Assembly (NCBI RefSeq): GCF_029607905.1
Contig: NZ_JAPHEH010000001.1
Span: 2,199,530 to 2,263,529, forward strand
From: Thiovibrio frasassiensis
Lineage (GTDB): Bacteria > Desulfobacterota > Desulfobulbia > Desulfobulbales > Desulfurivibrionaceae
Length of the DNA stretch: 64,000 bases
Reading direction: 5' to 3'
Shown: positions 9,336-43,811 of the stretch, in pieces
How positions within the stretch are numbered: position 1 is the first letter of the stretch
Layout of the letters: each line of letters opens with the position of its first letter
Program-made: the position numbers and the translations under genes
Notes under the pieces: model-generated
The model's input: only the letters and a program-made list of their open reading frames with translations
Databases searched by the model: none
Told to the model about the DNA's origin: nothing

Positions 9336-9989
9336 ATGTCCATGATTCTTCTTGTTGCCGCCACAGAGATGGAAGCCTTGCCCCTGGTCGGGAAAACGAC
9401 CGGCCAGCCCCATGCCCTTTTTGTTACGGGGGTGGGGCCGCTGGAAACAGCGGTCCGGCTCACCCGGCGGCTGTGCGAGGCTGAGGAGAAGGTCTCCCTG
9501 GTGCTTAATTTCGGCGTGGCTGGAGCCTATGAAGGTTCCGGTGCAGGGTTGCTTGATCTCTGTCTGGCCGAGAGCGAGGTTCTGGGGGATTTCGGGATCT
9601 GTTATGAAGAAAGCATTGCCTTCTTTGAGGGGCAATTGGCACCGAGGGCCGTGTTTCCGTTGGTTCCGGAGTATCTTGCCCAGGCCGGGGAAATTCTCGA
9701 CAACCACAACTACGACTGTAAGCAGGGCGCCTTCGTTACGGTAAACGGGGCAACCGCAACGGCCAGGCGTGGCGCCATGTTGCACGCTGCCCATAACGGT
9801 CTTTGCGAGAACATGGAAGGGGGGGCAGTGGCCAGGGTATGTGCGGAGTTTGCTATCCCCTGTCTTGAGGTGCGCTGCATCAGCAATATGGTGGAAGCGC
9901 GCAATCCTGCTAACTGGCAGCTTGGTGAAGCGATGCAAAAATGTGGGCAGGCCGTTTCTCTGCTTGTCGATCATCTCGTCCCCATTTGA
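9336..9989 (+). CDS. mqnB: Futalosine hydrolase
   Basis: A nucleoside-phosphorylase-fold enzyme that removes hypoxanthine from futalosine to give dehypoxanthine futalosine in the futalosine route to menaquinone. The 217-aa protein shows TGVGPLETAV, LNFGVAGAY, ENMEGGAVARVC and VRCISNMVEARN, the phosphorylase-like purine and ribose site. The alternative annotation, a generic MTA/SAH nucleosidase, is less likely because mqnD follows after 16 bases. The pathway here seems to run through futalosine because an MqnX-type deaminase is encoded at 39571. Confidence 0.9.
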   Translation: MSMILLVAATEMEALPLVGKTTGQPHALFVTGVGPLETAVRLTRRLCEAEEKVSLVLNFGVAGAYEGSGAGLLDLCLAESEVLGDFGICYEESIAFFEGQLAPRAVFPLVPEYLAQAGEILDNHNYDCKQGAFVTVNGATATARRGAMLHAAHNGLCENMEGGAVARVCAEFAIPCLEVRCISNMVEARNPANWQLGEAMQKCGQAVSLLVDHLVPI

Positions 9990-10005
9990 ACCAGGCGGAA
10001 AATCC

Positions 10006-10872
10006 GTGTCATTTCTTGCAGATACAATCCCGCTCAGCCTGGGCTTTTCTCCCTGCCCCAACGATACCTTTATCTTCAATGCCCTGGTGCATGGCCAGGT
10101 GTGCGGCGACTCCCTGCACTTTGCCGACCCGATCCTTGCCGATGTCGAAACCTTGAATGGGTGGGCACTTGCCGGCCGGCTTGATGTAACCAAGCTTTCC
10201 TTTCAAGCCTTGGGGCATGTCCTGGCCCAATATGTCCTGCTCATGGCCGGCAGTGCTCTTGGCCGAGGCTGCGGGCCATTGTTGGTGGCGGGGAAAAATT
10301 TTTCTCCAGGCGAGTTGGCCCGTCTGACCATTGCCATTCCGGGGGCATACACCACGGCGGCCATGTTGCTGCAGATGTATTCCCCTGTTCCTCTGCAGAC
10401 CAAAGTGATGCGCTTTGACGAGATCATGCCCGCCATTGTTGCCGGCGAGGTCGATGCCGGCGTGATTATCCACGAGAGCCGTTTCACCTTTCAGGCACAT
10501 GGGTTGCTCTTGCTCCAGGATCTTGGTGCCTGGTGGGAACGGGCGACCGGTTTTCCGATCCCGTTGGGCGGCATCGTGGCAAAGCGCTCCTTGGGGAAGG
10601 AGAAAATCCAGGCCATTGATCGGTGTATCCGCGCCAGTGTTTCTTCCGCCTTTGCCAGCCCGGAGGCGTCCATGGGCTATATCCGGAAACACGCCCAAGA
10701 GCTTGACGACAAGGTCATCAAGAATCATATCGGGCTCTATGTGAATCCTTTTTCTCTTGATCTGGGAGGAGAGGGGGTTGGTGCGGTGCGGGAGTTTCTG
10801 GAGCGCGGGAGACAACTCGGGGTTTTTCCGCGAGATTTTCCCGGATTGTCCTTAACCAGTAAAGAATTATAA
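10006..10872 (+). CDS. mqnD: 1,4-dihydroxy-6-naphthoate synthase
   Basis: Converts cyclic dehypoxanthinyl futalosine to 1,4-dihydroxy-6-naphthoate in menaquinone synthesis. The 288-aa protein has a periplasmic-binding-protein-like fold and family motifs LGFSPCPNDTFIF, DVTKLSFQA, AIPGAYTTAAML and VIIHESRFTF. The start is taken as GTG at 10006, preceded by AGGCGGAA; the open frame continues upstream only as antiphase overlap with mqnB. It is the last gene of the pan-mqn run, and the rest of the pathway lies at 37-44 kb. Confidence 0.93.
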   Translation: MSFLADTIPLSLGFSPCPNDTFIFNALVHGQVCGDSLHFADPILADVETLNGWALAGRLDVTKLSFQALGHVLAQYVLLMAGSALGRGCGPLLVAGKNFSPGELARLTIAIPGAYTTAAMLLQMYSPVPLQTKVMRFDEIMPAIVAGEVDAGVIIHESRFTFQAHGLLLLQDLGAWWERATGFPIPLGGIVAKRSLGKEKIQAIDRCIRASVSSAFASPEASMGYIRKHAQELDDKVIKNHIGLYVNPFSLDLGGEGVGAVREFLERGRQLGVFPRDFPGLSLTSKEL

Positions 10873-30705: not shown

Positions 30706-31704
30706 ATGCAGCGTGTTTTGGTGCTTGGCGGGAGTGGCTTTGTTGGCAGGGCGCTGGTGCAACGCCTTGTGGCTGATGGTGTTGAGACAGCTGTTCTCGC
30801 GCGGCGGGCTTTTCCCGAAGCAGAGGTGTTGGGCGTACGGGTCTTTTCCGGTGATATTTGCGATCTGGATTTCCTGACAAATTCACTGGCCGGGTATGAT
30901 ACCGTAATCCATCTTGCCTCGAAAGCCGGAATCTGGGGGGATAAAAATGAATATTACCAAACCAATGTCTCCGGCACCCAAAATGTTATAGATGCCTGTC
31001 GGGCAAATGCGATTTCTGTACTCGTTTATGCCAGTACGCCCGGGGTTGTCTATCAGAAAGACGATCTGTGCGGCGTGAATGAACGCACCCCGTATGCCAG
31101 GAATTTTCTCAGTGACTACGCGCGAAGCAAGGCGATTGCCGAGAAAATGGTTCTTGATGCCAATGCAGAGGGCCTGAAAACCATCGCCTTGCGACCGCAT
31201 CTTATCTGGGGGCCGGGAGACACCGATCTTATTCCCCGTCTTTTGGGTCAGGCCAGATGCCGGCAGTTGAAGCGGGTGGGGGATGGGCATAATCTTGTTG
31301 ATGTCACCTATATCGATAATGCCGTGGATGCCTTTGTGTTGGCAGCAAAAAACTTGCATGGGCAGGCAACCGGTGCCGGGAAGCCCTACTTCATCTCCCA
31401 GGGGGAACCGGTAAATCTCTGGAACTGGCTCAACAAATTTTTCCGCCGACTTGATATCCCCATTGTCGAGGAGAGCATTTCCTTCCACAAGGCCTATTTG
31501 GCCGGGGTGGTCATGGAAGCTTTTTGTACCCTTTCCAAGAGAAAAAAAGAGCCATGCATGACGCGGTTCCTTGCCGTGCAACTGGCGAAATCCCATTGGT
31601 TCTCCATCGAAAACGCCAACCGTGATCTGGGGTATTTCCCCAAGGTTTCGACAGGTGAGGGAATCAACACCATTCTGCAGTGGGTGAATAAGAGCCAGCT
31701 GTAG
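30706..31704 (+). CDS. NAD(P)-dependent epimerase/dehydratase family reductase (OleD-like)
   Basis: A 332-aa short-chain (extended SDR) enzyme. The Rossmann motif is VLGGSGFVGRAL (6-17); the segment HLASKAGIWGDKNEYYQTN, then YASTPGVVYQ and the active-site tyrosine in SDYARSKAIAEKMV, resembles OleD, the 2-alkyl-3-oxoalkanoate reductase of olefin synthesis, and 3-beta-HSD relatives. OleA, OleB and OleC are not encoded here, so a role in olefin synthesis is unproven; it may reduce another acyl or sterol-like substrate. It converges on the ACP-FAAL-acyltransferase gene 94 bases away. The start is ATG with AAAAGGTGAGAG upstream. Confidence 0.75.
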   Translation: MQRVLVLGGSGFVGRALVQRLVADGVETAVLARRAFPEAEVLGVRVFSGDICDLDFLTNSLAGYDTVIHLASKAGIWGDKNEYYQTNVSGTQNVIDACRANAISVLVYASTPGVVYQKDDLCGVNERTPYARNFLSDYARSKAIAEKMVLDANAEGLKTIALRPHLIWGPGDTDLIPRLLGQARCRQLKRVGDGHNLVDVTYIDNAVDAFVLAAKNLHGQATGAGKPYFISQGEPVNLWNWLNKFFRRLDIPIVEESISFHKAYLAGVVMEAFCTLSKRKKEPCMTRFLAVQLAKSHWFSIENANRDLGYFPKVSTGEGINTILQWVNKSQL

Positions 31705-31798: not shown

Positions 31799-34621
31799 TC
31801 AGGTGGCAGTATCGGGCTCCCCCAGTCGCGCCAGAATCCGAGTGCGTGCCGTGTCCCGAAGTTTCAGCGCCACTTGCCACTCATCATCCCCTTTTCCGTA
31901 TAACGGTTCACCGATCAGTACTTGGAGCACGCTGTAATGTGGCCGACGCCTTTCGCCGCGAAGCAGTGTCCGGGTGCCGATCAGGGCAATCGGCACCACA
32001 GGGATGCCACAGCGTGCGGCAATGACAAATGCCCCCAAACGAAAGGGCAGCAGGCCCGACTCGCTTTGGAAGGTCCCTTCTGGAAAGAACACCAGGGAAG
32101 CGCCTGCCCGAGTCAGGTCAGCCATGCCGTTGGTGTCCTCCGCGCCGCGCGTGCTGTCGAAACGTTCAACGAATGCGCTGTCCAGCCGGCGTAAGGGGAG
32201 AGCGGCAAGCGTTTTGTTGAGTAACTCCTGCTTGGCGACGTAGGTGAACCGTGGCGGCAACACCGCCGTAAGGATGAGTGCGTCCAGATAGCTGGCGTGA
32301 TTGGCGACGACAATTGTCGGGGTGCTCTCGGTAAGGTGTTGCAATCCCTCCACCCGCGGTGTCAGTCCGGTCAGCGACAAAACAAGGCGTGCGCTTGTCC
32401 TGGCAATGTTTCGGCGCAAGGTGAGCGCGGGGGCAAGGACGATCAGGCACCAGGCGAAGGGGACGATGGCGGCAAAGACCGTCCAGGCCCAGGCGCTCCA
32501 CGCGCACCCGACGCATCGGTGTTGCCAACGCTTTGTCTGCGTCTTTATGCCGGAGTAAACCAGGTGTAGTATTTGCCGCCAAGGTTTGTGGTGCGCATTG
32601 ATGAGCACGCCGCGTTCGTAACGTTCGCGGCAGGCGGAGCGGCGAATTTTGCCGCTGGAGGTTTTCAGTACAGTGCGCGGGGGGACAAGGACGATGTCGT
32701 CGACGGGGAGTCCCAGCAAATCTATGGCGAGTCGATTGATTTCGCTCTGGATGCGGCTGCGCTCTTTATTCCTGGCGAATTCCTTTATTTCGGCGAGGAC
32801 CACCAGCCGTTCCGTGCCGGTCTGGGGGGCAGTCGCGGGAAACACCGCCACCCCGCCTTTGTGAACGCCGCGCACCTGATTCACTGCTTCTTCCAACTCC
32901 TGGGGATGAATATTGTGCCCGCCGCGGATGATGATATCCTTCTCGCGCCCGGTGAGGTAGAGATCCTCTGTCGCGAGATATCCCAGATCACCGGTATTGA
33001 GCCAGGGCCCATCGAACAGGAGCTTGGTGGCTTCGGGGTTGCGGAAATAGCCGCGGGTCGCGGATGGGCCCTGAAACTGCACCATTCCTTGCCTGCGTTC
33101 CGGCAATACTTGGCCAGTGGCGTCAACAATGCGGATAGCGTGCTCCGGCAATGGCCTCCCGCATGAGACGATATGCCGTGGGTTGGGATCTTCCATTGAC
33201 GCGACAAGGGCGATTCCCGTTCCGGAAAGCGCCTCGCGATCCACGCGGTCAATGAGCGGCCCGCGTCCAAGGGGCGGAAAGGCAAGGCCGACAGAAGATT
33301 CCGCCAGGCCATAAACCGGAGTCATGGCCTTTGGACCGAAACCATAGGGAGCGAGTCGGGCGGCAAAATGACTCAGGGTGTCTGAACTGACCGGTTCGGC
33401 GCCGTTGTAGGCCAGCCGCCAGCAGCTCAGATCCAGGCCGTCGAGATCGCGGTCATCGAGCTTGTTGGCACAGAGTTCATAAGCGAAATTGGGGGCCGCC
33501 GATACGGTGGCACGATGTCGGTGGATGGTCCACAGCCAACGACTGGGCCGGGCGAGGAAGGCAAGCGGCGACATCAGCACCAGCAGGAAGCCGACGCTGA
33601 GGCTGCCCATGCAGGCGCCGATGAGTCCCATGTCGTGGTAGAGCGGTAGCCAGGAGACAAAAATGTCTGCCGAGGTGATGCCCGAAGCTTGCTCCATTGC
33701 GCGCAGGTTGGCGAGTAGGTTGGTGTGGGTCAGCACGACGCCCTTTGGGTTGCCGGTGCTGCCGGAGGTGTATTGCAATAAAGCGATGTCCTGCGCGTTA
33801 GGTCGTGGCAAGGGTTGCGGGATGATGGGACCGGACAGTTCCGAAACTGTCACAACGCTGCGTAGCGAGGAGCATTGTGCGCGCAACAGGTGGCCGAGCG
33901 CCTTGGCTCGTTCGTCGGTGACGAGGATGCTGGCCTCGGCATTGGTGATAATTCCAGCGATGCGCCGCATGTGATCTTCGATTTGCGATGGGCGTGTTGG
34001 TGGGTAAAGGGGCACCGGCACGCAGCCAGAATAGAGCGCGCCGTAAAAAGCGGTGAAAAATTCGCGCCCGGTGGGCAGCATGATGGCGATTCTGTCACCA
34101 TTGCCTAAACCCTGGGTGCGTAAGCCGGCTGCCAGTTCCCGGGACTCTGTCTGCAGCATGCGATAGGTAATTTCTTCTGTCCGCTCCTCATCGACATAGA
34201 ACGTGATATGCGTCCGTTCTCCGTGTTGCGCAACATGCCAGTCAAGCATTTCGTTCAGCGTGGCTATGGTTTCCGGGGGATGTCCGATTTCGCATAGCGT
34301 CTGCGTGGCAAAGTGGGGCGAGGCGGGTATGGTGGCCAGGGGCTGGCTCTCCATCAGTGCCAGCAGATCGCGTGGGGTGTCTGCCTCGGCCAATGCCGTC
34401 TCGCTCAGCCTCACCCCCGTCTCGCGCTGGATGCGGACAAGCAGTTCCATGCGTGCCAGGCTGTCCAATCCGAAATCGCTGTCCAGCGCATGATCCAGCC
34501 CAAGGTGCGCCATGGCTTTAGAAGTTGGGCGCAGTTCGCCGGAGAGCCTGCGCACGATGCCGAGCAAAAGATCGGCGGCAGGAATCTCTTGATGGGAGGA
34601 GGGGGATGTTTTTATAGGCAT
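31799..34621 (-). CDS. Acyl carrier protein - fatty acyl-AMP ligase - PlsC acyltransferase fusion
   Basis: A 940-aa multidomain enzyme. An ACP-like domain (about 10-95) has the phosphopantetheine serine in GLDSLARMEL. A fatty acyl-AMP ligase follows (about 115-690; YTSGSTGNPKGVVLTH, WLPLYHDMGLIG, GLAESSVGL, TGREKDIIIRGGHN). A hydrophobic segment (about 715-745) precedes an acyltransferase (about 750-935) with NHASYLD (the HX4D motif) and FFPEGTF. This suggests that free fatty acid is activated, loaded on the attached ACP and passed to a lipid acceptor. The order is the reverse of E. coli Aas. The start ATG at 34621 is uncertain: AGGAGG is 20 bases away and a TTG lies at 34639. A broken fadD is upstream on the same strand. 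Confidence 0.87.
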   Translation of the reverse strand: MPIKTSPSSHQEIPAADLLLGIVRRLSGELRPTSKAMAHLGLDHALDSDFGLDSLARMELLVRIQRETGVRLSETALAEADTPRDLLALMESQPLATIPASPHFATQTLCEIGHPPETIATLNEMLDWHVAQHGERTHITFYVDEERTEEITYRMLQTESRELAAGLRTQGLGNGDRIAIMLPTGREFFTAFYGALYSGCVPVPLYPPTRPSQIEDHMRRIAGIITNAEASILVTDERAKALGHLLRAQCSSLRSVVTVSELSGPIIPQPLPRPNAQDIALLQYTSGSTGNPKGVVLTHTNLLANLRAMEQASGITSADIFVSWLPLYHDMGLIGACMGSLSVGFLLVLMSPLAFLARPSRWLWTIHRHRATVSAAPNFAYELCANKLDDRDLDGLDLSCWRLAYNGAEPVSSDTLSHFAARLAPYGFGPKAMTPVYGLAESSVGLAFPPLGRGPLIDRVDREALSGTGIALVASMEDPNPRHIVSCGRPLPEHAIRIVDATGQVLPERRQGMVQFQGPSATRGYFRNPEATKLLFDGPWLNTGDLGYLATEDLYLTGREKDIIIRGGHNIHPQELEEAVNQVRGVHKGGVAVFPATAPQTGTERLVVLAEIKEFARNKERSRIQSEINRLAIDLLGLPVDDIVLVPPRTVLKTSSGKIRRSACRERYERGVLINAHHKPWRQILHLVYSGIKTQTKRWQHRCVGCAWSAWAWTVFAAIVPFAWCLIVLAPALTLRRNIARTSARLVLSLTGLTPRVEGLQHLTESTPTIVVANHASYLDALILTAVLPPRFTYVAKQELLNKTLAALPLRRLDSAFVERFDSTRGAEDTNGMADLTRAGASLVFFPEGTFQSESGLLPFRLGAFVIAARCGIPVVPIALIGTRTLLRGERRRPHYSVLQVLIGEPLYGKGDDEWQVALKLRDTARTRILARLGEPDTAT

Positions 34622-34682: not shown

Positions 34683-36364
34683 TTATCTCGGTTGCTGCTC
34701 TTCTTTTAATTTCCGGCGTAGAATCTTGCCTATGGCGGATTTGGGAAGCGTTTTGCGGAATTCGACATGCTTTGGGATCTTGTATGCGCTCAGATAAACC
34801 CTGCAGTGTGCAATCACCGCTTCGGCCGTGAGAGAGGTATCTTTTTTCACCAGATACACCTTGACCGCCTCGCCGCTTTTTTCATCAGGGATTCCCACAA
34901 CGCACACCTCCTTGACCCCCGGGAGCATCATCACCACGTCCTCAATCTCGGTGGGGTAGGCCTTGAAGCCGGAGACCACGATCATGTCCTTGTGGCGGTC
35001 GATGAATTGGATGTAGCCGCGCTCGTCCATCACGCCAATGTCTCCGGTGCGTAACCAGCCATCGGCGCTGAGGACGCGGTCGGTTTCTTCAGGCATGTTC
35101 CAGTAACCCCGCATTACTTGGGGCCCTTGCACGCAGATCTCACCCTGTTCGTTCAGGGGCAGCTCGCAGCCATTTTCGTCCCGGATTGCTACCCGGGTGG
35201 AGGGAATCGGGACGCCGATTTTGCCGCTGAATGTCTTGGCGTTCAGCGGATTGACGCAGACGATGGGTGAGGCCTCGGTCAGTCCATAGCCCTCGATGAG
35301 CGGCATTCCCATCATTTGTTGCCATCCTTCCGCCACTGCGCGCTGCACTGCCATGCCGCCGGCCACCGAAACCTTGAGTGCCCCGGCGTTGGCTTTTTTT
35401 ACGGCCTCAAAGCTGGGTTCATGCAGGAGAAGATTGAACAGGGTGTTGACGCCGGTTATGGCGGTGAAGCGGGTCTTTTTTAATTCTTGCACGAAGCTAT
35501 GGATGTCGCGGGGATTGGTGATCAGGATATTGTTTGCCCCCCACTTTACGAAGGTGAGCAGATTGGCGGTGAGGGCGAAGATATGGTAGAGGGGCAGCGG
35601 GGTGACGATCAGCTCTTCGCCTTCCTTGAGGGTGGAGCCGATCCAGGCCGAGGTTTGCTCCACGTTGGCCACCATGTTGCCGTGGCTCAGGATCGCGCCC
35701 TTGGCCAGACCGGTTGTTCCGCCGGTATATTGAAGGAAGGCGATGTCCGTATGATCGATCGGCACCTCGGTGCGTGTGTGGTGTGCGCCAAGTTTCAGCG
35801 CGGAGTTAAAATCGATTGCGTCCGGCAGATCCCAGCGCGGCACCATGCCTTTGATCCATTTGATGACGAAATTCACCATATATGCCTGCAGGGGTGGGAA
35901 GAGGTCTCCTATTTCGGTGGTGATCACATGACGCACCGCAGTTGTGGCGATGACCTCCTGCAGCGTGTGGGCGAAATTCTCCAGCACCACGACGGCCAAA
36001 GCCCCGGAGTCGGCCAATTGGTGTTGCAGTTCGCGGGGGGTGGAAAGCGGATTGACATTGACCAGCACTATGCCTGCGCGGAGCGCACCGAAGAGCGCAC
36101 CGGATATTGCAGCAGGTTGGGCAGCATGATGGCCAAGCGATCGCCTTTGTTCAGCCCGACAACGTGTTGCAGGTAAGCAGCAAAATTACCGGATAGGCGG
36201 TCGAGTTCGCCATAGGTCATGGCAACGTCCATGTTGGTGAAGGCGGGATGATGGTGAAATCGTGCGCAACTCTGTTCGAACAGGTCCCTCAGTGAGCTGA
36301 AGCGGAAAATATCGACCTCGGCCGGAATACCTTGTGGGTAGTGCTTCAGCCAGACTGGTTCCAT
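34683..36364 (-). pseudogene. fadD: Long-chain fatty acid--CoA ligase, broken by a single frameshift
   Basis: A gene very close in sequence to gammaproteobacterial FadD, split into two frames. The N-terminal part (36364-36068, 98 codons) reads to NLLQYPV and then goes out of frame to a TAG. Shifting by one base at about 36099 restores ALFGALRAGIVLVNVNPL, exactly the FadD continuation, and the rest (461 codons) is intact: YTGGTTGLAKGA, EGYGLTEASP, GWLRTGDIGVMD, SGFKAYPTEIEDV and GKILRRKL. One base is missing between GT and GCG. No slippery run is present, so a recent mutation or a sequencing error is likelier than programmed shifting. If intact the product would be about 560 aa. Confidence 0.88.
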
Positions 36365-37413: not shown

Positions 37414-38508
37414 ATGGAACAGATGGTGGTTGCGGCAGGGCTTGGAGATATCCTGGACAAGGTCAAGGCAGGGGAGCGTCTCAGCAACGAAGACGGGGTC
37501 CGGCTCTATAAAACGAACGATATCCTGGCGCTTGGCTACCTGGCCAATCTGGTGCGGGAGCGGCTCAACGGCGATCGCGCCTATTTCATCTACAACCAGC
37601 ACGTCAACTATTCCAACATCTGCACCAATCTCTGCAAGTTTTGCGCCTTTGGCAAGGACAAGGAGTCGCCGCAGGCCTATGAGATGACGGTGGATCAGGT
37701 CAAGGCCAAGGTGCGCGAGCGTCTGGCCGAGCCCATTACCGAGGTGCATGTGGTGGGCGGCATTCACCCCGATCTTCCCTATCAGTACTATCTGGACATG
37801 TTGCGCGGCATCAAAGAGGTGCGGCCGGAGATCCATATCCAGGCCTTTACCTGTGTGGAGATCGCCCATCTGGCAGAGCTTGCCGGAAAGTCCGTGACCG
37901 AGACCCTCAAGGAATTGGTTGCCGCGGGGCTTGGCTCGATCCCTGGCGGTGGGGCGGAGGTTTTCAGCCCCCGGATCCGGCAGCGGACCTGTGAGAAGAA
38001 ACTCTCCGGCGAGGGGTGGCTCGAGGTCGCCAAGGCTGCGCATCGGCTCGGGCTGAAAAGCAACGCCACCATGCTCTACGGGCATATCGAGACCATGGAG
38101 GAGCGGGTCGAGCATCTTGCGGCGCTGCGCGAGGCGCAGGATGAAACCGGCGGCTTTCTTACCTTCATTCCCTTGGCTTTCCATCCCAAGAATACCGAGA
38201 TGCACGATTTGGCCAAGACCAGCGGCCTTGACGATCTGAAAAACATCGCGGTGGCCCGCTGTTTTCTTGACAACTTTGCCCACATCAAGGCCTACTGGGT
38301 GATGATCGGCCCCAAGCTGGCCCAGGTTGCCCTTTCCTTTGGCGCGGACGATGTGGACGGGACGGTCAAAGAGGAACTGATTACCCATATGGCCGGCGGG
38401 GAAACCGGCGGGACTATGGCCGACACCGAGTTGATCCGCTTGATCCTGGATGCGGGCAGAAAACCGGTGGAACGGGACACCCTCTACAACGTGATCAGGG
38501 AGTACTGA
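37414..38508 (+). CDS. mqnE: Aminodeoxyfutalosine synthase
   Basis: A radical SAM enzyme that joins 3-enolpyruvylbenzoate to the adenosyl group of SAM, forming aminodeoxyfutalosine. The 364-aa protein carries the cluster motif CTNLCKFCAF (CxxxCxxC) after YFIYNQHVNYSN, then VVGGIHPDLPYQYY, GLGSIPGGGAEVFS and LTFIPLAFHPKNT. It is paired with the paralogous mqnC 5 bases downstream. MqnE rather than MqnC is inferred from the CTNLC form and FHPKNT. GGGAGA at the end of the TetR gene supplies its ribosome site. Confidence 0.94.
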   Translation: MEQMVVAAGLGDILDKVKAGERLSNEDGVRLYKTNDILALGYLANLVRERLNGDRAYFIYNQHVNYSNICTNLCKFCAFGKDKESPQAYEMTVDQVKAKVRERLAEPITEVHVVGGIHPDLPYQYYLDMLRGIKEVRPEIHIQAFTCVEIAHLAELAGKSVTETLKELVAAGLGSIPGGGAEVFSPRIRQRTCEKKLSGEGWLEVAKAAHRLGLKSNATMLYGHIETMEERVEHLAALREAQDETGGFLTFIPLAFHPKNTEMHDLAKTSGLDDLKNIAVARCFLDNFAHIKAYWVMIGPKLAQVALSFGADDVDGTVKEELITHMAGGETGGTMADTELIRLILDAGRKPVERDTLYNVIREY

Positions 38509-38513
38509 GTCCC

Positions 38514-39569
38514 ATGGATATGCAGCGGATCACGGAAAAGGTTTTGGCCGGTAAGCGGCTTACGATTGACGAGGGGTTGAGCCTTGCTGAACACGCCGAT
38601 CTTTACCAACTGGGGTTTCTGGCCGACGCCATCCGCCGGCGAAAGCACCCCGAGCCCATGGTCACTTATGTGATCGACCGCAACATCAACTATACCGACA
38701 TCTGTGTCTCCGCCTGCAAGTTCTGTGCGTTTTTCAAATCGCCGGAAGACCCGGATGGGTCGGTGTTGTCCTTTGCCGAGCTCGGCGAGAAGATCGAAGA
38801 AACCAAGCGTCTTGGCGGGACCCAGATCCTCCTGCAGGGCGGACTCCATCCGGACAAGCCTTTAGAGTTCTACGAGGAAATGCTCCGCTTCATCAAGGGG
38901 CACGGTATTCATATCCACGGTTTTTCCCCGCCCGAGGTCTGTCATTTTGCCACCTTGTCCGGTCTGCCGGTGCGGGAGGTCTTGATCCGTCTTCAGCAGG
39001 CGGGGCTTGATTCCATTCCCGGCGGCGGCGCGGAGATTCTCTGCGATCGGGTGCGGCAGGAAACCGCGCCGCGGAAATGTTCCACCGATGCCTGGCTCGG
39101 GGTCATGGAAGAGGCGCACCGTCTCGGGATGCGCACCACCGCGACAATGATGTTCGGGCATCTGGAAACCACGGCGGAGCGGATCGAACATCTGGCCCGA
39201 GTGCGTGAGCTGCAGGATAAAACCGGCGGTTTCACCGCTTTCATCCCCTGGCCGTTTCAGCCGGACAACACCGTGCTTTCCCATCTTCCCAAGACTACCG
39301 CCTGCGGCTACTTGAAGATGCTGGCGCTTTCCCGGATCTTTCTGGACAATATCGACAATATTCAGGCCTCCTGGGTGACCCAGGGGCCGAAGATTGCCCA
39401 GCTCTCGCTTTTTTTCGGGGCCAATGATTTCGGCAGTACCATGATTGAGGAGAATGTGGTGGCCGCGGCCGGGGTGGGCTTCCGTCTCTCCGAACAGGAG
39501 ATCCGCACCTTAGTGCAAGGCGCTGGCCGTGTCCCCAGGCAGCGCACAATGGATTACACCTTGGTGTGA
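38514..39569 (+). CDS. mqnC: Cyclic dehypoxanthinyl futalosine synthase
   Basis: A radical SAM enzyme that cyclises dehypoxanthine futalosine. The 351-aa protein has DRNINYTDICVSACKFCAFF with the CxxxCxxC cluster site, QILLQGGLHPDKPLEFYEE, GLDSIPGGGAEILCDRVR and FIPWPFQPDNT, the MqnC pattern. It works after MqnB and before MqnD, both encoded at about 10 kb. The mqnX gene begins one base after its stop codon. The two radical SAM genes probably arose by duplication. Confidence 0.95.
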   Translation: MDMQRITEKVLAGKRLTIDEGLSLAEHADLYQLGFLADAIRRRKHPEPMVTYVIDRNINYTDICVSACKFCAFFKSPEDPDGSVLSFAELGEKIEETKRLGGTQILLQGGLHPDKPLEFYEEMLRFIKGHGIHIHGFSPPEVCHFATLSGLPVREVLIRLQQAGLDSIPGGGAEILCDRVRQETAPRKCSTDAWLGVMEEAHRLGMRTTATMMFGHLETTAERIEHLARVRELQDKTGGFTAFIPWPFQPDNTVLSHLPKTTACGYLKMLALSRIFLDNIDNIQASWVTQGPKIAQLSLFFGANDFGSTMIEENVVAAAGVGFRLSEQEIRTLVQGAGRVPRQRTMDYTLV

Positions 39570-39570
39570 C

Positions 39571-40788
39571 ATGCAGGAATACCCCCGTTATCTCTACCGT
39601 GCACCCTTTGTAGTCCAGGGCAATGGCCCGATTATTGCCGATGGTGCGGTACTCACCGAAGACGGCCTGGTTGTGGCGGTGGGGCGGTATGCTGAGCTGA
39701 AAGACCTCGATGCGCAACTGGAAGACTATGAGGGGCACGTCATTACTCCACCCTTGGTCAACTGCCATGCCCATCTTGAACTCTCGTATCTCTCCGGGCT
39801 GGCTACTGCCGGGAGCGATTCTCCCTCGCCCGGCGACATGACCGGTTGGATCCGTTCCCTGCTCGCCGCCCGGGCGGAGAATATAGAGCAGGACACCGTG
39901 CATGATGCCGCGCTGATGGCGCTGGCCACATTGTATGCCGGGGGATGCCGGGGGGTGGCCGATATCGGTAATCGTCCGGAAAGTTCTTTTTTGGCGGAGG
40001 GGTTCAAGACCGAGGTGCTCTTTTTTCTCGAAATGTTTGGACTGTGCGGCGAATCCGAGGAATCGGCGCTGGCCGCCTTGTCTGGATTTGCTGCTGATGT
40101 CCGCTGTACGGCGCATGCCCCCTATTCCACCGGAGCAAGGTTGATCCAGGCATTAAAAAAGAGGGCAGGCAGAGAGAGGAGTCTCTTTCCCATGCATGTG
40201 GCCGAATCGGCGCAAGAGATTGAATTTTTGCGTACCGGCTCCGGACCGTTTCGGGATTTTCTGCTCGAGCGGGGGGTGGCGGTTGACTCCTTCACCCCGC
40301 CCGGCATGGGGGCGGTCCGGTATCTGGATTCCCTGGGCGTGCTGGATGCGCAGACCCTCTGTGTTCATGCTGTGCATGTCGATGAGGAAGAGATCTCGCT
40401 TTTGGCCGCACGCGGGGGTGCAGTCTGTCTCTGTCCTGCCAGTAATCGTTACATGGGGGTAGGCACAGCGCCGGTGGAAAAAATGCTCGCCCAGGGCATT
40501 CCCCTGGTTTTGGGTACCGATAGTCTGGCCAGCAACCCGCAGCTGAATCTCTGGCAAGAGATGCAGGTATTACGGCAAGACCATCCTGCTCTCGCCCCCG
40601 AGGCGGTCTTTGCCATGGCCTCGGTCAATGGCTCCCGCCTACTCGGCCTTGGCGGACGCCTGGGCACCGTGGCCCCCGGGGTTTCCTCCTCTCTGTTGGC
40701 GGTGCGCTGCCAGGCGAAGAACGAGGGTGATGTTTTGGAGTATCTTACCTCCACCGGCACGGATATTAAGCTTGAGTGGCTCGAATAA
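39571..40788 (+). CDS. mqnX: Aminodeoxyfutalosine deaminase (amidohydrolase)
   Basis: A 405-aa metal-dependent amidohydrolase. Motifs are VNCHAHLELSYLSG (HxH), TAHAPYSTGARL, MHVAES and GTDSLASNPQLNLW, the adenosine/cytosine deaminase-like pattern. In this operon it almost certainly deaminates aminodeoxyfutalosine to futalosine, which MqnB then cleaves. The start ATG at 39571 comes one base after the mqnC stop; the longer frame is only overlap. Substrate assignment rests on context, since related proteins act on S-adenosylhomocysteine or guanine. Confidence 0.86.
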   Translation: MQEYPRYLYRAPFVVQGNGPIIADGAVLTEDGLVVAVGRYAELKDLDAQLEDYEGHVITPPLVNCHAHLELSYLSGLATAGSDSPSPGDMTGWIRSLLAARAENIEQDTVHDAALMALATLYAGGCRGVADIGNRPESSFLAEGFKTEVLFFLEMFGLCGESEESALAALSGFAADVRCTAHAPYSTGARLIQALKKRAGRERSLFPMHVAESAQEIEFLRTGSGPFRDFLLERGVAVDSFTPPGMGAVRYLDSLGVLDAQTLCVHAVHVDEEEISLLAARGGAVCLCPASNRYMGVGTAPVEKMLAQGIPLVLGTDSLASNPQLNLWQEMQVLRQDHPALAPEAVFAMASVNGSRLLGLGGRLGTVAPGVSSSLLAVRCQAKNEGDVLEYLTSTGTDIKLEWLE

Positions 40789-40792
40789 CAGG

Positions 40793-41632
40793 ATGAAGAT
40801 CACGGCCAGAATCGGGATGGTGAATTATATCAACACCGCTCCTCTCTATGAGGTGTGGCAGCAAACCGTTCACCGTCCAGACTGGCTGGTTACCGAGGCG
40901 CCGCCCTCTCAGCTTAACCGGATGCTCCACGAAAAGGAACTGGACCTGGGTTTTGTCTCCTCCCAGGAATATGCGCTGCACCCCGGGGAGTATAGGATTC
41001 TGAGCGATCTCTCCATTTCTGCCACCGGGCAGGTGGGCAGTGTTTTTCTCTTTTCGGAAGTGCCTTTTACCCAGTTAGAAGAACAACTTGTCCTGCTCAG
41101 CTCCCAGTCCCAAACCTCGGTGAGCCTGGTCAAGATTATCCTTGAGGATTTCTATCAGGTTCGGCCCAGATATTGCGCTGGGATGGCCACTGATCTTGCC
41201 GTTTCACGGGAAAGGCCCATGGCGGTATTGGCTATAGGCGACGAGGCTTTGCGTCTGGCGGCCGGAGAAAGGTATCCCCACCGACTCGATCTTGGCGAAG
41301 CATGGCAGGCCCGCACCGGTCTGCCCTTTGTTTTTGCGGTTTGGGCGGTGCGGGAGGACTTTTGTCGTTCCGCTCCGGACACGGTCCTGGCTATCCATCA
41401 GGAGCTGCTCCGTTGCCTGCGGGAGGGCAAGAAACGGCTGCGGGAGATCAGTGCCGCTGTGGCCGGGCGGGTTCCCATGGACGAAAATGCCTGCTACCGC
41501 TATCTTCAGGGGATTGAATATGATCTGGGCAGTGAAAAGCAGGAGGCGTTGACGCTATTTTTCGAGTATCTTGTCTCGCGTGGGGAGGTTCCGGCCACGG
41601 CGCTTCCCATAAAGGTTTGCGGAAATCATTGA
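40793..41632 (+). CDS. mqnA: Chorismate dehydratase
   Basis: Dehydrates chorismate to 3-enolpyruvylbenzoate, the first step of the futalosine pathway. The 279-aa protein has the bilobed fold shared with MqnD; motifs are ARIGMVNYINTAPLY, LGFVSSQEYA, SVSLVKIILE and AIGDEALRLA. The ATG at 40793 is 4 bases after the mqnX stop. It competes with pheA for chorismate. Gene order here is mqnE-C-X-A followed by menG. Confidence 0.93.
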   Translation: MKITARIGMVNYINTAPLYEVWQQTVHRPDWLVTEAPPSQLNRMLHEKELDLGFVSSQEYALHPGEYRILSDLSISATGQVGSVFLFSEVPFTQLEEQLVLLSSQSQTSVSLVKIILEDFYQVRPRYCAGMATDLAVSRERPMAVLAIGDEALRLAAGERYPHRLDLGEAWQARTGLPFVFAVWAVREDFCRSAPDTVLAIHQELLRCLREGKKRLREISAAVAGRVPMDENACYRYLQGIEYDLGSEKQEALTLFFEYLVSRGEVPATALPIKVCGNH

Positions 41633-41636
41633 GCAT

Positions 41637-42344
41637 ATGAAGAATCCAGACGAAAAGAAGAAATTTGTTCAGGAAAAGTTCTCCTCGATCAGCGGGAAAT
41701 ATGATTTCCTCAATTCGGTGTTGAGTTTTCAGATCGACCGTTATTGGCGCTGGGTCACCACCCGGGAGTTGAAGGAGTTCCCCGAGGGCGCGGTTCTCGA
41801 CCTTTGTGCCGGCACCCTGCCTCTTTCCCTGGAGTTGACCCGGCAGGCCAAGCACCGTCAGGTTCTGTCCGTGGATTTTTGTGAAGACATGCTGCGGGCC
41901 GGGATGCAGCACCTTCCCGCCGATGAGCGGAAAGGGAGGATAGGGCCGGTGTGCGGGGATGGAGAGCAGATCCCCGTGAAAAGCGGGACGGTCTGGGGAG
42001 TTACCGTGGCCTTCGGGGTTAGGAATCTGGCGAGAACCCAACAGGGATTGAATGAAATGTATCGGGTGTTGAAGCCGGGGGGCAAGCTGTTGATCCTCGA
42101 ATTTTCCCGGCCGCAGAATCCTGTGGTCAAGCCCCTCTATAATTTCTATCTCAACCGGGTATTGCCGAAGATTGCCGGACTTGTATCCGGCGACACCGAG
42201 GCCTACGAGTATCTTGCCAGCTCCATTGCCGAATTTTATACGCCGGAACAATTGCTGGGCATGATGCAACAGGCAGGATTTGCCACAACCTACCATCGAC
42301 CGTTGACCTTTGGGGTGGTGACGGTCTATGTGGGGGTAAAATGA
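41637..42344 (+). CDS. menG: Demethylmenaquinone methyltransferase (UbiE/MenG family)
   Basis: SAM-dependent C-methylation of demethylmenaquinone, the last step of the pathway. The 235-aa protein has FSSISGKYDFLNSVLSF, the SAM site VLDLCAGTLPLSLEL, VAFGVRNLA and YRVLKPGGKLLILEFS, all typical of UbiE. Because the organism appears to make menaquinone, the menG name is chosen over ubiE. It starts 4 bases after mqnA and its 3' end overlaps ubiX by ATGA. Confidence 0.94.
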   Translation: MKNPDEKKKFVQEKFSSISGKYDFLNSVLSFQIDRYWRWVTTRELKEFPEGAVLDLCAGTLPLSLELTRQAKHRQVLSVDFCEDMLRAGMQHLPADERKGRIGPVCGDGEQIPVKSGTVWGVTVAFGVRNLARTQQGLNEMYRVLKPGGKLLILEFSRPQNPVVKPLYNFYLNRVLPKIAGLVSGDTEAYEYLASSIAEFYTPEQLLGMMQQAGFATTYHRPLTFGVVTVYVGVK

Positions 42345-42919
42345 AAAAAGTTGTCCTGGCCATAACCGGAGCAACCGGCGCGGTTTACGCCCTGGAGTTT
42401 CTCAAGCTCTGCCAGCCCCTTGGGGTTGAGGTGCATGGGCTGCTGTCCGAGGCGGGAGAACAGGTGCTCGGGCTTGAGCTTGGCATGTCCCGCCGGGATC
42501 TCGACCCTTTTGTTGCCCGCTGGCATGATGTGCACGATTTTGCCGCGCCCATGTCCAGCGGCTCCAGCGATTTCAGCGGCATGGCGGTCCTGCCCTGCAC
42601 CATGGGGAGTCTTGCCGCCATTGCCAACGGTATTTGCGGCAATCTCATCCATCGGGCCGCGGATGTCATGCTCAAGGAGCGTCGCCCACTGGTTCTGGCG
42701 GTCCGGGAAACACCCTTGAATAAGACCCACCTCACGAATATGTTAAAGGCGCACGAGGCTGGGGGGATCATCTGTCCGCCTATGCCCGCCTTGTACCACC
42801 GGCCCCGGAGTATCGAAGAGATGGCCCGTCTGTTTGCGGGGAGGGTTGCGGGACTGCTCGGCATCGAGGTTGCGGACCTGCCCAGATGGCAGGGCATACC
42901 CCCGGAGGAAGAGGCATGA
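42341..42919 (+). CDS. ubiX: Flavin prenyltransferase UbiX
   Basis: Makes prenylated FMN, the cofactor of UbiD-type decarboxylases such as MqnL in the futalosine route. The 192-aa protein has VVLAITGATGAVYALEFL, SSGSSDFSGMAVLPCTMGSL and RPLVLAVRETPLNKTHLTNM, the standard FMN and dimethylallyl-phosphate sites. It is translationally coupled to menG through a 4-base overlap. The UbiD partner is not in the window and is presumably elsewhere. Confidence 0.95.
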   Translation: MKKVVLAITGATGAVYALEFLKLCQPLGVEVHGLLSEAGEQVLGLELGMSRRDLDPFVARWHDVHDFAAPMSSGSSDFSGMAVLPCTMGSLAAIANGICGNLIHRAADVMLKERRPLVLAVRETPLNKTHLTNMLKAHEAGGIICPPMPALYHRPRSIEEMARLFAGRVAGLLGIEVADLPRWQGIPPEEEA

Positions 42920-42956
42920 TGGCGGGTCGCAACCAATCTGTTGCCAGAGAGGGCCG

Positions 42957-43811
42957 ATGATGTTGCGCAAGGTGAAGGACCTGCTTGAGATGATCAAGTT
43001 CGGGCATACCATTTTTGCCCTGCCCTTTGCTCTGATCGGGGCGTTTCTGGCAAAACGCGGAGTTCCTGAAGCCGCCACCTTTGTCTGGATCATTTTGGCC
43101 ATGGTCGGTGCCCGGACTGCGGCCATGGGCTTCAACCGCATTGCCGACCGGAAGTTTGACGCCGCCAACCCCCGCACTGCGGATCGGGCTATCCCCAGTG
43201 GTGCCGTACGGCTGGCGGAAGCCTGGGGAATGGTTGTACTCTTTGCCCTGCTCTATTTTGTTGCCTGCTCTCAACTCAATCCGCTCACCTTGCTGCTTTC
43301 CCCTTTTGCCCTGGGTCTTACCTTCCTCTATTCCCTGACCAAACGTTTCACCTGGCTCTGCCATGTGGTTCTCGGTATCGCCCTGGCTTTTTCTCCCTTG
43401 GGCGGTTGGGTTGCAGTTAAAGGGAACCTTTTTGATTTCCCCTTTGTCCTCTCTCTTGGAGTGCTCTTCTGGGTTGCTGGTTTTGATACGGTGTACGCCT
43501 GCCTTGATGCTGATTTTGACCGCCAAGCAGGGCTCTATTCCCTGCCTTCACGGTTCGGTCGGGAAAAAGCCTTCAAACTAGCGGTTTTTTTTCATGGGTT
43601 GGCCTTTCTTTTGTTTATTTGCACAGGTATAGTATCTCGCTTGAATATTTATTATTATATGGGAATCGCTCTTACGGCCGGGGCTCTTTTTTATCAGCAT
43701 ATCGCTGTGAATCCGAGGGACCTGTCCCGTATCCAGCTTTCATTTTTTACCATGAACGGTCTTATCAGTCTTACCCTGTTTGTCGCAACCTGGCTTTCGT
43801 TGGTAGTTTGA
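42957..43811 (+). CDS. mqnP: Polyprenyltransferase of menaquinone synthesis (UbiA family, MqnP-like)
   Basis: An integral membrane prenyltransferase that attaches the isoprenoid chain to 1,4-dihydroxy-6-naphthoate. The 284-aa protein has about eight membrane helices and two aspartate motifs: NRIADRKFDAANPRTADRAI (NxxxDxxxD) and LDADFDRQAG. UbiA of ubiquinone synthesis would look the same; the operon makes MqnP the better name. Tandem ATG codons begin at 42957 after GAGAGGG. An open frame back to 42834 lies within ubiX and is not supported. The prenyl chain comes from dxs and ispA products. Confidence 0.9.
   Translation: MMLRKVKDLLEMIKFGHTIFALPFALIGAFLAKRGVPEAATFVWIILAMVGARTAAMGFNRIADRKFDAANPRTADRAIPSGAVRLAEAWGMVVLFALLYFVACSQLNPLTLLLSPFALGLTFLYSLTKRFTWLCHVVLGIALAFSPLGGWVAVKGNLFDFPFVLSLGVLFWVAGFDTVYACLDADFDRQAGLYSLPSRFGREKAFKLAVFFHGLAFLLFICTGIVSRLNIYYYMGIALTAGALFYQHIAVNPRDLSRIQLSFFTMNGLISLTLFVATWLSLVV

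Follow-up and report, generated by a model that had tools for sequence, protein, structure and literature searches.

How can one bacterial polypeptide activate a free fatty acid, hold it and pass it to a lipid? This question is raised by an open reading frame (ORF) in a 64,000-nucleotide stretch of the Thiovibrio frasassiensis genome (RefSeq assembly GCF_029607905.1, contig NZ_JAPHEH010000001.1, positions 2,199,530 to 2,263,529), which we refer to as the window. The ORF occupies 34621-31799 of the minus strand, is complete (ATG at 34621, stop at 31801-31799) and encodes 940 amino acids in which an acyl carrier protein (ACP), a fatty acyl-AMP ligase (FAAL) and a PlsC-type acyltransferase follow one another. 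This fusion is a real, conserved enzyme family under purifying selection, and the window copy keeps every catalytic residue that we examined. From its sequence and from analogy with the Aas enzyme of E. coli, we regard the fusion as probably a membrane-associated, self-contained enzyme that re-acylates lysolipids in an Aas-like manner using its own ACP.

The ACP domain (PF00550, PP-binding) covers residues 40-89 (34355..34504; 39.2 bits, cut-off 20.8), and the conserved DSL serine that would carry the phosphopantetheine arm is Ser54 of the motif GLDSL (34462-34460). The FAAL domain spans residues 115-672 (32606..34279) as defined by Pfam, PDB sequence and structure matches, with an AMP-binding Pfam match at residues 127-526 (239.2 bits, cut-off 29.9) and the conserved A10 lysine at Lys658 (32650-32648). 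The PlsC-type domain (PF01553) follows at residues 756-880 (31982..32356; 92 bits, cut-off 23), with a conserved HX4D motif, NHASYLD, running from His775 to Asp780 (32299-32282) and FPEGT at residues 846-850. All of these features lie on the minus strand, and frame 1 of the plus strand over 31799-34621 is full of stops. GGAGGT lies 19 bases 5' of the ATG; the start codon at 34621 is likely but not certain because this spacing is rather long. A first-pass annotation of this DNA had placed the three activities on a single chain and had read the ACP serine, the AMP-ligase core and the HX4D motif as intact, and both statements hold: the three Pfam domains exceed their cut-offs within one ORF, and the motifs can be read directly and are conserved in aligned homologues. 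It had also called the domain order opposite to that of Aas, which agrees with the description of E. coli Aas as a transferase (residues 1-203) followed by a synthetase (residues 204-719) (PMC11416262).

The ligase of the fusion could belong to either the FAAL or the CoA ligase class. In NCBIfam it best matches PRK09192, a subfamily of fatty acyl-AMP ligases, over residues 120-671, at 449 bits and thus below the curated cut-off of 600. The interval between motifs A5 and A7, which we take to be the expected place of the FAAL-specific insertion, measures 112 amino acids in all seven fusions compared versus 83-90 in six CoA ligases or Aas proteins (three FadD, two further ligases of the window genome and the E. 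coli Aas ligase). This comparison of motif spans places the insertion region at about residues 450-482 (33176..33274, minus strand); the term FAAL-specific insertion itself is used in PMC8460268. An AlphaFold model of the fusion (mean pLDDT 87.2, pTM 0.75) was used whole for structure searches, the rows listed being FAAL-type domains. Among solved chains, the E. coli FAAL 3PBK comes nearest both by sequence (E 1.9e-94) and by structure (Z 51.4, root-mean-square deviation 2.6, 550 residues aligned to the full model), and the top six rows of the structure search are all FAALs. Because of the A5-A7 insertion and these six rows, the ligase is by sequence and predicted fold a FAAL rather than a CoA ligase. 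FAALs are described as loading fatty acids on holo-ACP and rejecting CoA (PMC8460268).

Between the FAAL and PlsC domains lies a hydrophobic, probably membrane-embedded stretch at residues 680-735 (32417..32584, minus strand), recognized from hydropathy and from a long modeled helix (680-729) that holds the most hydrophobic stretch of the whole fusion and leads into the acyltransferase domain. Both this helix and the acyltransferase part are modeled at high confidence, and a hydropathy peak above 1.4 occurs in the linker of 83 of the 85 homologues measured. The sole PDB sequence match of the PlsC domain up to E 1 is the 1-acylglycerol-3-phosphate acyltransferase PlsC 5KYM (E 8.3e-14), a stand-alone PF01553 relative that shares the HX4D and FPEGT motifs; in the fusion, by contrast, the domain is preceded by its own acyl-ACP generator. 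A profile of PlsC domains from the fusion family scores the other PF01553 protein of the window genome at 124 bits and E. coli PlsC at 75 bits. The fusion does not fall into the Aas group of families (PRK08043, PRK06814 and PRK08633): against PRK08633 it reaches 143.5 bits where the cut-off is 1221, and its order is ACP-FAAL-PlsC rather than that of Aas.

A scan of genome contigs found at least 590 stretches encoding relatives of the fusion, from which the best 80 were kept; 72 of these 80 loci gave full-length proteins. Together with 13 further loci and the window protein they form an alignment of 86 full-length sequences, which contains one duplicate pair (L017 and L061) and favors intact proteins because it is drawn from the best-scoring loci. 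Seventeen partial match rows from 14 loci had been dropped beforehand, most of them cut at contig ends and some with broken frames (L028, L021/L023). L022, a FAAL-type match within a 2520-amino-acid open frame, is among those left out. The entries L002-L004 come from other genes in the window genome. Ser54 of the ACP, Lys658 of the FAAL domain, His775 and Asp780 of the PlsC domain and Glu848 and Gly849 of FPEGT are kept in all 86 sequences, and all three Pfam domains are present in each of the 50 homologues scanned. Loss of the serine or of HX4D in homologues, or an assembly error joining separate proteins, had been named in advance as observations that would speak against the enzyme; no such loss is seen in the homologues aligned, and we reject an assembly artefact since the full-length fusion recurs in tens of other genomes. 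The ratio of nonsynonymous to synonymous substitution rates (dN/dS) is about 0.2 against three congeners. Nei-Gojobori comparisons with five relatives gave dN of 0.17-0.25 and dS of 0.7-1.3 overall; each time the FAAL domain had the lowest dN and the linker the highest. The homologues carry record labels such as Aromatoleum, Polaromonas, Massilia, Variovorax, Sulfuritalea, Methylocystis, Hahella and Thiocapsa. Two further full-length homologues (L066 and L091) sit on contigs labeled Mycobacterium innocens and Rhodococcus aetherivorans, which represents either transfer between phyla or contamination.

Within the window's own class the fusion is present in 69 of 257 genomes, distributed over 29 of 69 genera. 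The window protein is 68% identical to its Aromatoleum homologue versus 51% to that of G021, a member of its own family, which suggests at the sequence level that the fusion has been transferred horizontally. A FAAL-acyltransferase fusion is not new in print, because a 2021 eLife paper (PMC8460268) mentions bacterial FAAL-like domains fused with lysophospholipid acyltransferases, as a case of recruitment to functions independent of polyketide synthases (PKS) and nonribosomal peptide synthetases (NRPS). These are very likely the same family, although the portion of that paper available to us treats the fusion in a single phrase, without an ACP, partners, distribution or function. Our search of mostly open-access literature returned only this phrase for an ACP-FAAL-PlsC fusion and no paper on an ATG22-type lysolipid transporter. 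As far as these searches tell, the ACP, the distribution, a partner of the major facilitator superfamily (MFS) and an operon are added by the present analysis. The first-pass annotation was silent on the wide distribution, the printed mention, the MFS neighbor, the gene row of the congeners and a broken fadD gene, the last three of which are described below.

Clustering of the genes that flank the fusion revealed one recurrent neighbor, an MFS protein of 420-480 amino acids that matches ATG22 (PF11700) and occurs at 14 loci; the sole other cluster with at least six loci consists of a frame antisense to the fusion. Seven of 49 chosen neighbor genes that were scanned match ATG22. In the class, this MFS family is found in 115 of the 257 genomes (E<=1e-15) and coincides with the fusion in 51, compared with an expectation of about 31 (69 x 115 / 257; Fisher p 1.7e-8). 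In 24 of those 51 genomes the two genes lie within 2.1 kb of each other, a count that covers all 71 fusion rows and 79 MFS rows (the MFS rows omitted are from genomes without the fusion). Only about 0.15 such adjacencies are expected under a crude independence model that treats related genomes as independent and assumes a rough genome size of 3 Mb. The 24 pairs come from nine families; 23 are on the same strand, with the MFS gene upstream in 19 and downstream in four, and one is on opposite strands. Because gene order changes while proximity is kept, the linkage argues for a functional connection instead of shared descent alone. Beyond the class, adjacent MFS matches on the same strand occur in records named Massilia, Sulfuritalea and Pseudomaricurvus and in an alphaproteobacterial metagenome-assembled genome, and at the Polaromonas locus the match is a piece of only 92 amino acids. 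The neighbor is not a recognizable LplT, the MFS flippase that accompanies Aas: the LplT model PRK11195 does not match three of the MFS neighbors at 1e-5 (E. coli LplT, as control, scores 578.9 bits), BLASTP of one neighbor against E. coli LplT detects no similarity (E 1.2), and a PDB sequence search with the MFS protein returns only NorA at E of about 0.2 to 0.4.

Congeners display the fusion in a fuller setting. At the same chromosomal site G011 and G001 have fadD, a ceramidase-like gene, the MFS gene and the fusion, flanked on one side by menaquinone genes with a TetR gene and on the other by SDR-ManC-DUF294 genes (SDR, short-chain dehydrogenase/reductase). The same four genes are found in congeners G015, G004 and G016. 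The row fadD - ceramidase-like - MFS - fusion is seen at L110, L111, L112, L113 and L115 in congeners as well as at L025 and L026, and at L028 without a visible fadD. A hydrolase-like ORF is additionally present at L025 (the KA05 record), L026 and L028, the one at L025 lacking a Pfam match. In G008 (L114, L021, L023) the fusion is split into several frames and the ceramidase-like gene was not seen, reflecting either decay or draft errors. One of three ceramidase-like proteins scanned exceeds the PF05875 cut-off of 32.5, and an S-H-D-HxxxH pattern, which we take to be that of the Ceramidase/CREST families, is invariant in nine of nine aligned. A PDB sequence search with the ceramidase-like profile found nothing up to E 1, and with the structural model the top Foldseek row is ACER3 at only E 2e-3 while the VIA list is led by G protein-coupled receptors (GPCRs) with tied Z. 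The assignment therefore rests on Pfam and the residue pattern, since VIA could not separate CREST from GPCR folds.

The window fadD is in two pieces on the minus strand, recognized from the ORF list, family matches and comparison with congeners: an N-terminal piece of 98 amino acids (36068..36364) with a broken frame, and a C-terminal piece of 461 amino acids in another frame (34683..36068), which ends 61 bp upstream of the fusion. The gene is 84-85% identical to the uninterrupted fadD of G011 and G001, and the frame change (34683-36364) is possibly a real mutation and possibly a sequencing error. As a separate observation, the N-terminal piece weakly matches the exosortase-linked ligase family TIGR03098; the fusion's own matches are the best 25 of 111 families.

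Elsewhere in the window genome neither an LplT match nor, at E<=1e-150, a PRK08633-type Aas match was found, and there is one other PF01553 gene; these results favor an Aas-like role for the fusion. The same Aas search detected a full PlsC-ligase protein in five of the 257 class genomes, among which only G038 carries the fusion, so that 68 of 69 fusion carriers are without such a match for this one family, at this one threshold and with two scored candidates per genome. Additionally, the only MFS protein of the ATG22-like family in the window genome is a paralogue (33% identical) at C1:523307, about 1.7 Mb away on the contig.

We propose that the FAAL domain would adenylate a free long-chain fatty acid and then, instead of using CoA, load the acyl group onto the phosphopantetheine arm that Ser54 would carry in the N-terminal ACP of its own chain. 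The acyl-ACP would then swing across to PlsC at the C terminus, which would esterify a lysolipid at the surface of the membrane. The acceptor is most likely a lysophospholipid that an MFS flippase would bring to the cytoplasmic side; where the neighborhood is conserved, this flippase is presumably the adjacent ATG22-like protein. Since the MFS gene is absent from the window locus, the enzyme there may act alone, may borrow the distant paralogue or may sit in a decaying operon. This reading draws on the parallel with the LplT-Aas pair, in which LplT brings in lysophospholipids and Aas acylates them from the acyl-ACP that it makes (PMC11416262). Pseudomonas aeruginosa is reported to have LplT joined to the acylation part of Aas in one polypeptide, with Aas regenerating phosphatidylethanolamine from its lyso form (PMC8926400). 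Like the Aas/LplT systems of E. coli and of the fused PRK08633 and PRK06814 types, the fusion joins an acyl-ACP synthetase and a PlsC-type transferase in one chain and is adjoined by an MFS gene in a good part of the genomes examined. It differs from Aas in its reversed domain order, its own ACP and an FAAL insertion absent from the E. coli enzyme, and its MFS partner differs from LplT in being ATG22-like. Loading of its own ACP is made plausible by AasR of Rhodobacteria, described as acylating only its own AcpR and not CoA or the housekeeping ACP (PMC9386255). In that system too a synthetase loads free fatty acid on a dedicated carrier and rejects CoA, as we suppose from sequence for the fusion; however, AasR and AcpR are separate proteins that feed serine palmitoyltransferase, and the part of that report available to us describes no PlsC. 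Didomain FAAL-ACP proteins of natural product pathways likewise place a FAAL and its cognate ACP on one chain (PMC11837247), whereas in the fusion the ACP is N-terminal and PlsC follows instead of feeding a PKS or NRPS.

Several observations weigh against a lysolipid re-acylating role with an MFS partner. Adjacency is lacking in 27 of the 51 class genomes where the two genes co-occur, though draft contig ends may hide some pairs, and the MFS gene is seen at only 15 of 85 loci with a placed fusion gene, once on the opposite strand, several flanks being only about 1.5 kb long. Five of the 24 adjacent MFS matches (G008, G032, G102, G228, G236) are listed with an internal stop, and to our knowledge no function of ATG22-family proteins is known in bacteria. 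At the window locus both the MFS and the ceramidase-like genes are absent, leaving only the broken fadD followed by the fusion, and no PldA-type phospholipase match was found in the window genome. Congeners G007 and G010 (97-99% complete) are without the fusion at the threshold used, so the enzyme is not essential in the genus. The PlsC-domain profile gives 63 bits for E. coli Aas and 68-77 bits for three Aas-like class proteins, no better than for E. coli PlsC, and the domain is thus not especially Aas-like. Finally, we found no biochemical test of any member of the fusion family in the literature searched.

The slight advantage of E. coli PlsC over E. coli Aas in that profile, together with 5KYM as the only PDB sequence match, would also fit an enzyme that makes phosphatidic acid from 1-acyl-glycerol-3-phosphate using exogenous or recycled fatty acids, that is, assimilation rather than repair, and the fadD gene adjacent in the window and in congeners suggests such an uptake setting. 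We consider this rather unlikely given that the genome has a second PF01553 protein and that a lysolipid suits the recurrent MFS gene and the ceramidase-like gene of congeners better than a soluble precursor does. A little less probable again is that the acceptor is not a phospholipid but, for instance, an aminolipid, a sphingolipid-like base or some other special lipid. Enzymes of the LPLAT family are described as O-acylating aminolipids (PMC11631085), synthetase and ACP pairs feed sphingolipid synthesis in Rhodobacteria (PMC9386255), and the congeners do have the ceramidase-like gene. However, no OlsB-type PF13444 match was found in the window genome, on which ground an aminolipid product was rejected, and no serine palmitoyltransferase model exceeded its cut-off in eight of the ten PF00155 proteins, the eight that were scanned; the other two are weak (34.9 and 30.2 bits). 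The SDR gene downstream of the fusion is convergent with it and not co-transcribed. The first-pass annotation had offered both the recycling of free fatty acids into phospholipid and an unusual lipid; by inference the former is the best explanation here as well, while the genome gives the latter no support.

We give a similarly low probability to the view that the window copy is left over from a decaying operon and now has no function. Compared with the same site in congeners, fadD is frameshifted and two genes are missing, yet the fusion ORF is intact with its catalytic residues, dN/dS is about 0.2 (an average that is blind to recent loss) and the frameshift may be a sequencing error.

If the fusion is a lysolipid re-acylating enzyme, it suggests that many bacteria can build free fatty acid into membrane lipid on one chain and without CoA; its recurrent MFS neighbor gives a testable prediction for a transporter family, and the protein itself could be used as a small tool to place fatty acids of choice on lipids. 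More tentatively, and with odds that we place below even, the gene row may constitute an unrecognized, horizontally mobile system of acyl-chain editing in bacterial membranes. In it, the released fatty acid would be handled by FadD together with a ceramidase-like membrane hydrolase of CREST type, the lysolipid would be flipped by an ATG22-type MFS protein, and re-acylation by the fusion would need neither CoA nor the housekeeping ACP. Such a system would parallel LplT-Aas without being orthologous to it, and bacterial ATG22-like transporters would gain a function.

Other genes of the window and its genome deserve brief mention. The convergent gene at 30706-31704 (plus strand) encodes an OleD/3-beta-HSD-like extended SDR whose closest family is OleD (2-alkyl-3-oxoalkanoate reductase), with a score under the cut-off; no other Ole genes were recognized among the window ORFs scanned. 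Its identification as CerR was dropped because it is convergent, because its family lies beside the fusion in two congeners only and because no serine palmitoyltransferase model exceeded its cut-off in the eight PF00155 proteins scanned. Of these PF00155 proteins one is BioF. A second one, BioF/Kbl-like but under all cut-offs shown, has an overlap with a gene of the epimerase family, an arrangement that would presumably fit a threonine dehydrogenase - Kbl pair. No PKS or NRPS was found among the window genes scanned. The window also holds a futalosine-route menaquinone set at 37414-43811 (plus strand) comprising MqnE, MqnC, an amidohydrolase, UbiE, UbiX and an MqnP-like protein, as well as a menaquinone-biosynthesis PF02621 protein at 9769-10872.

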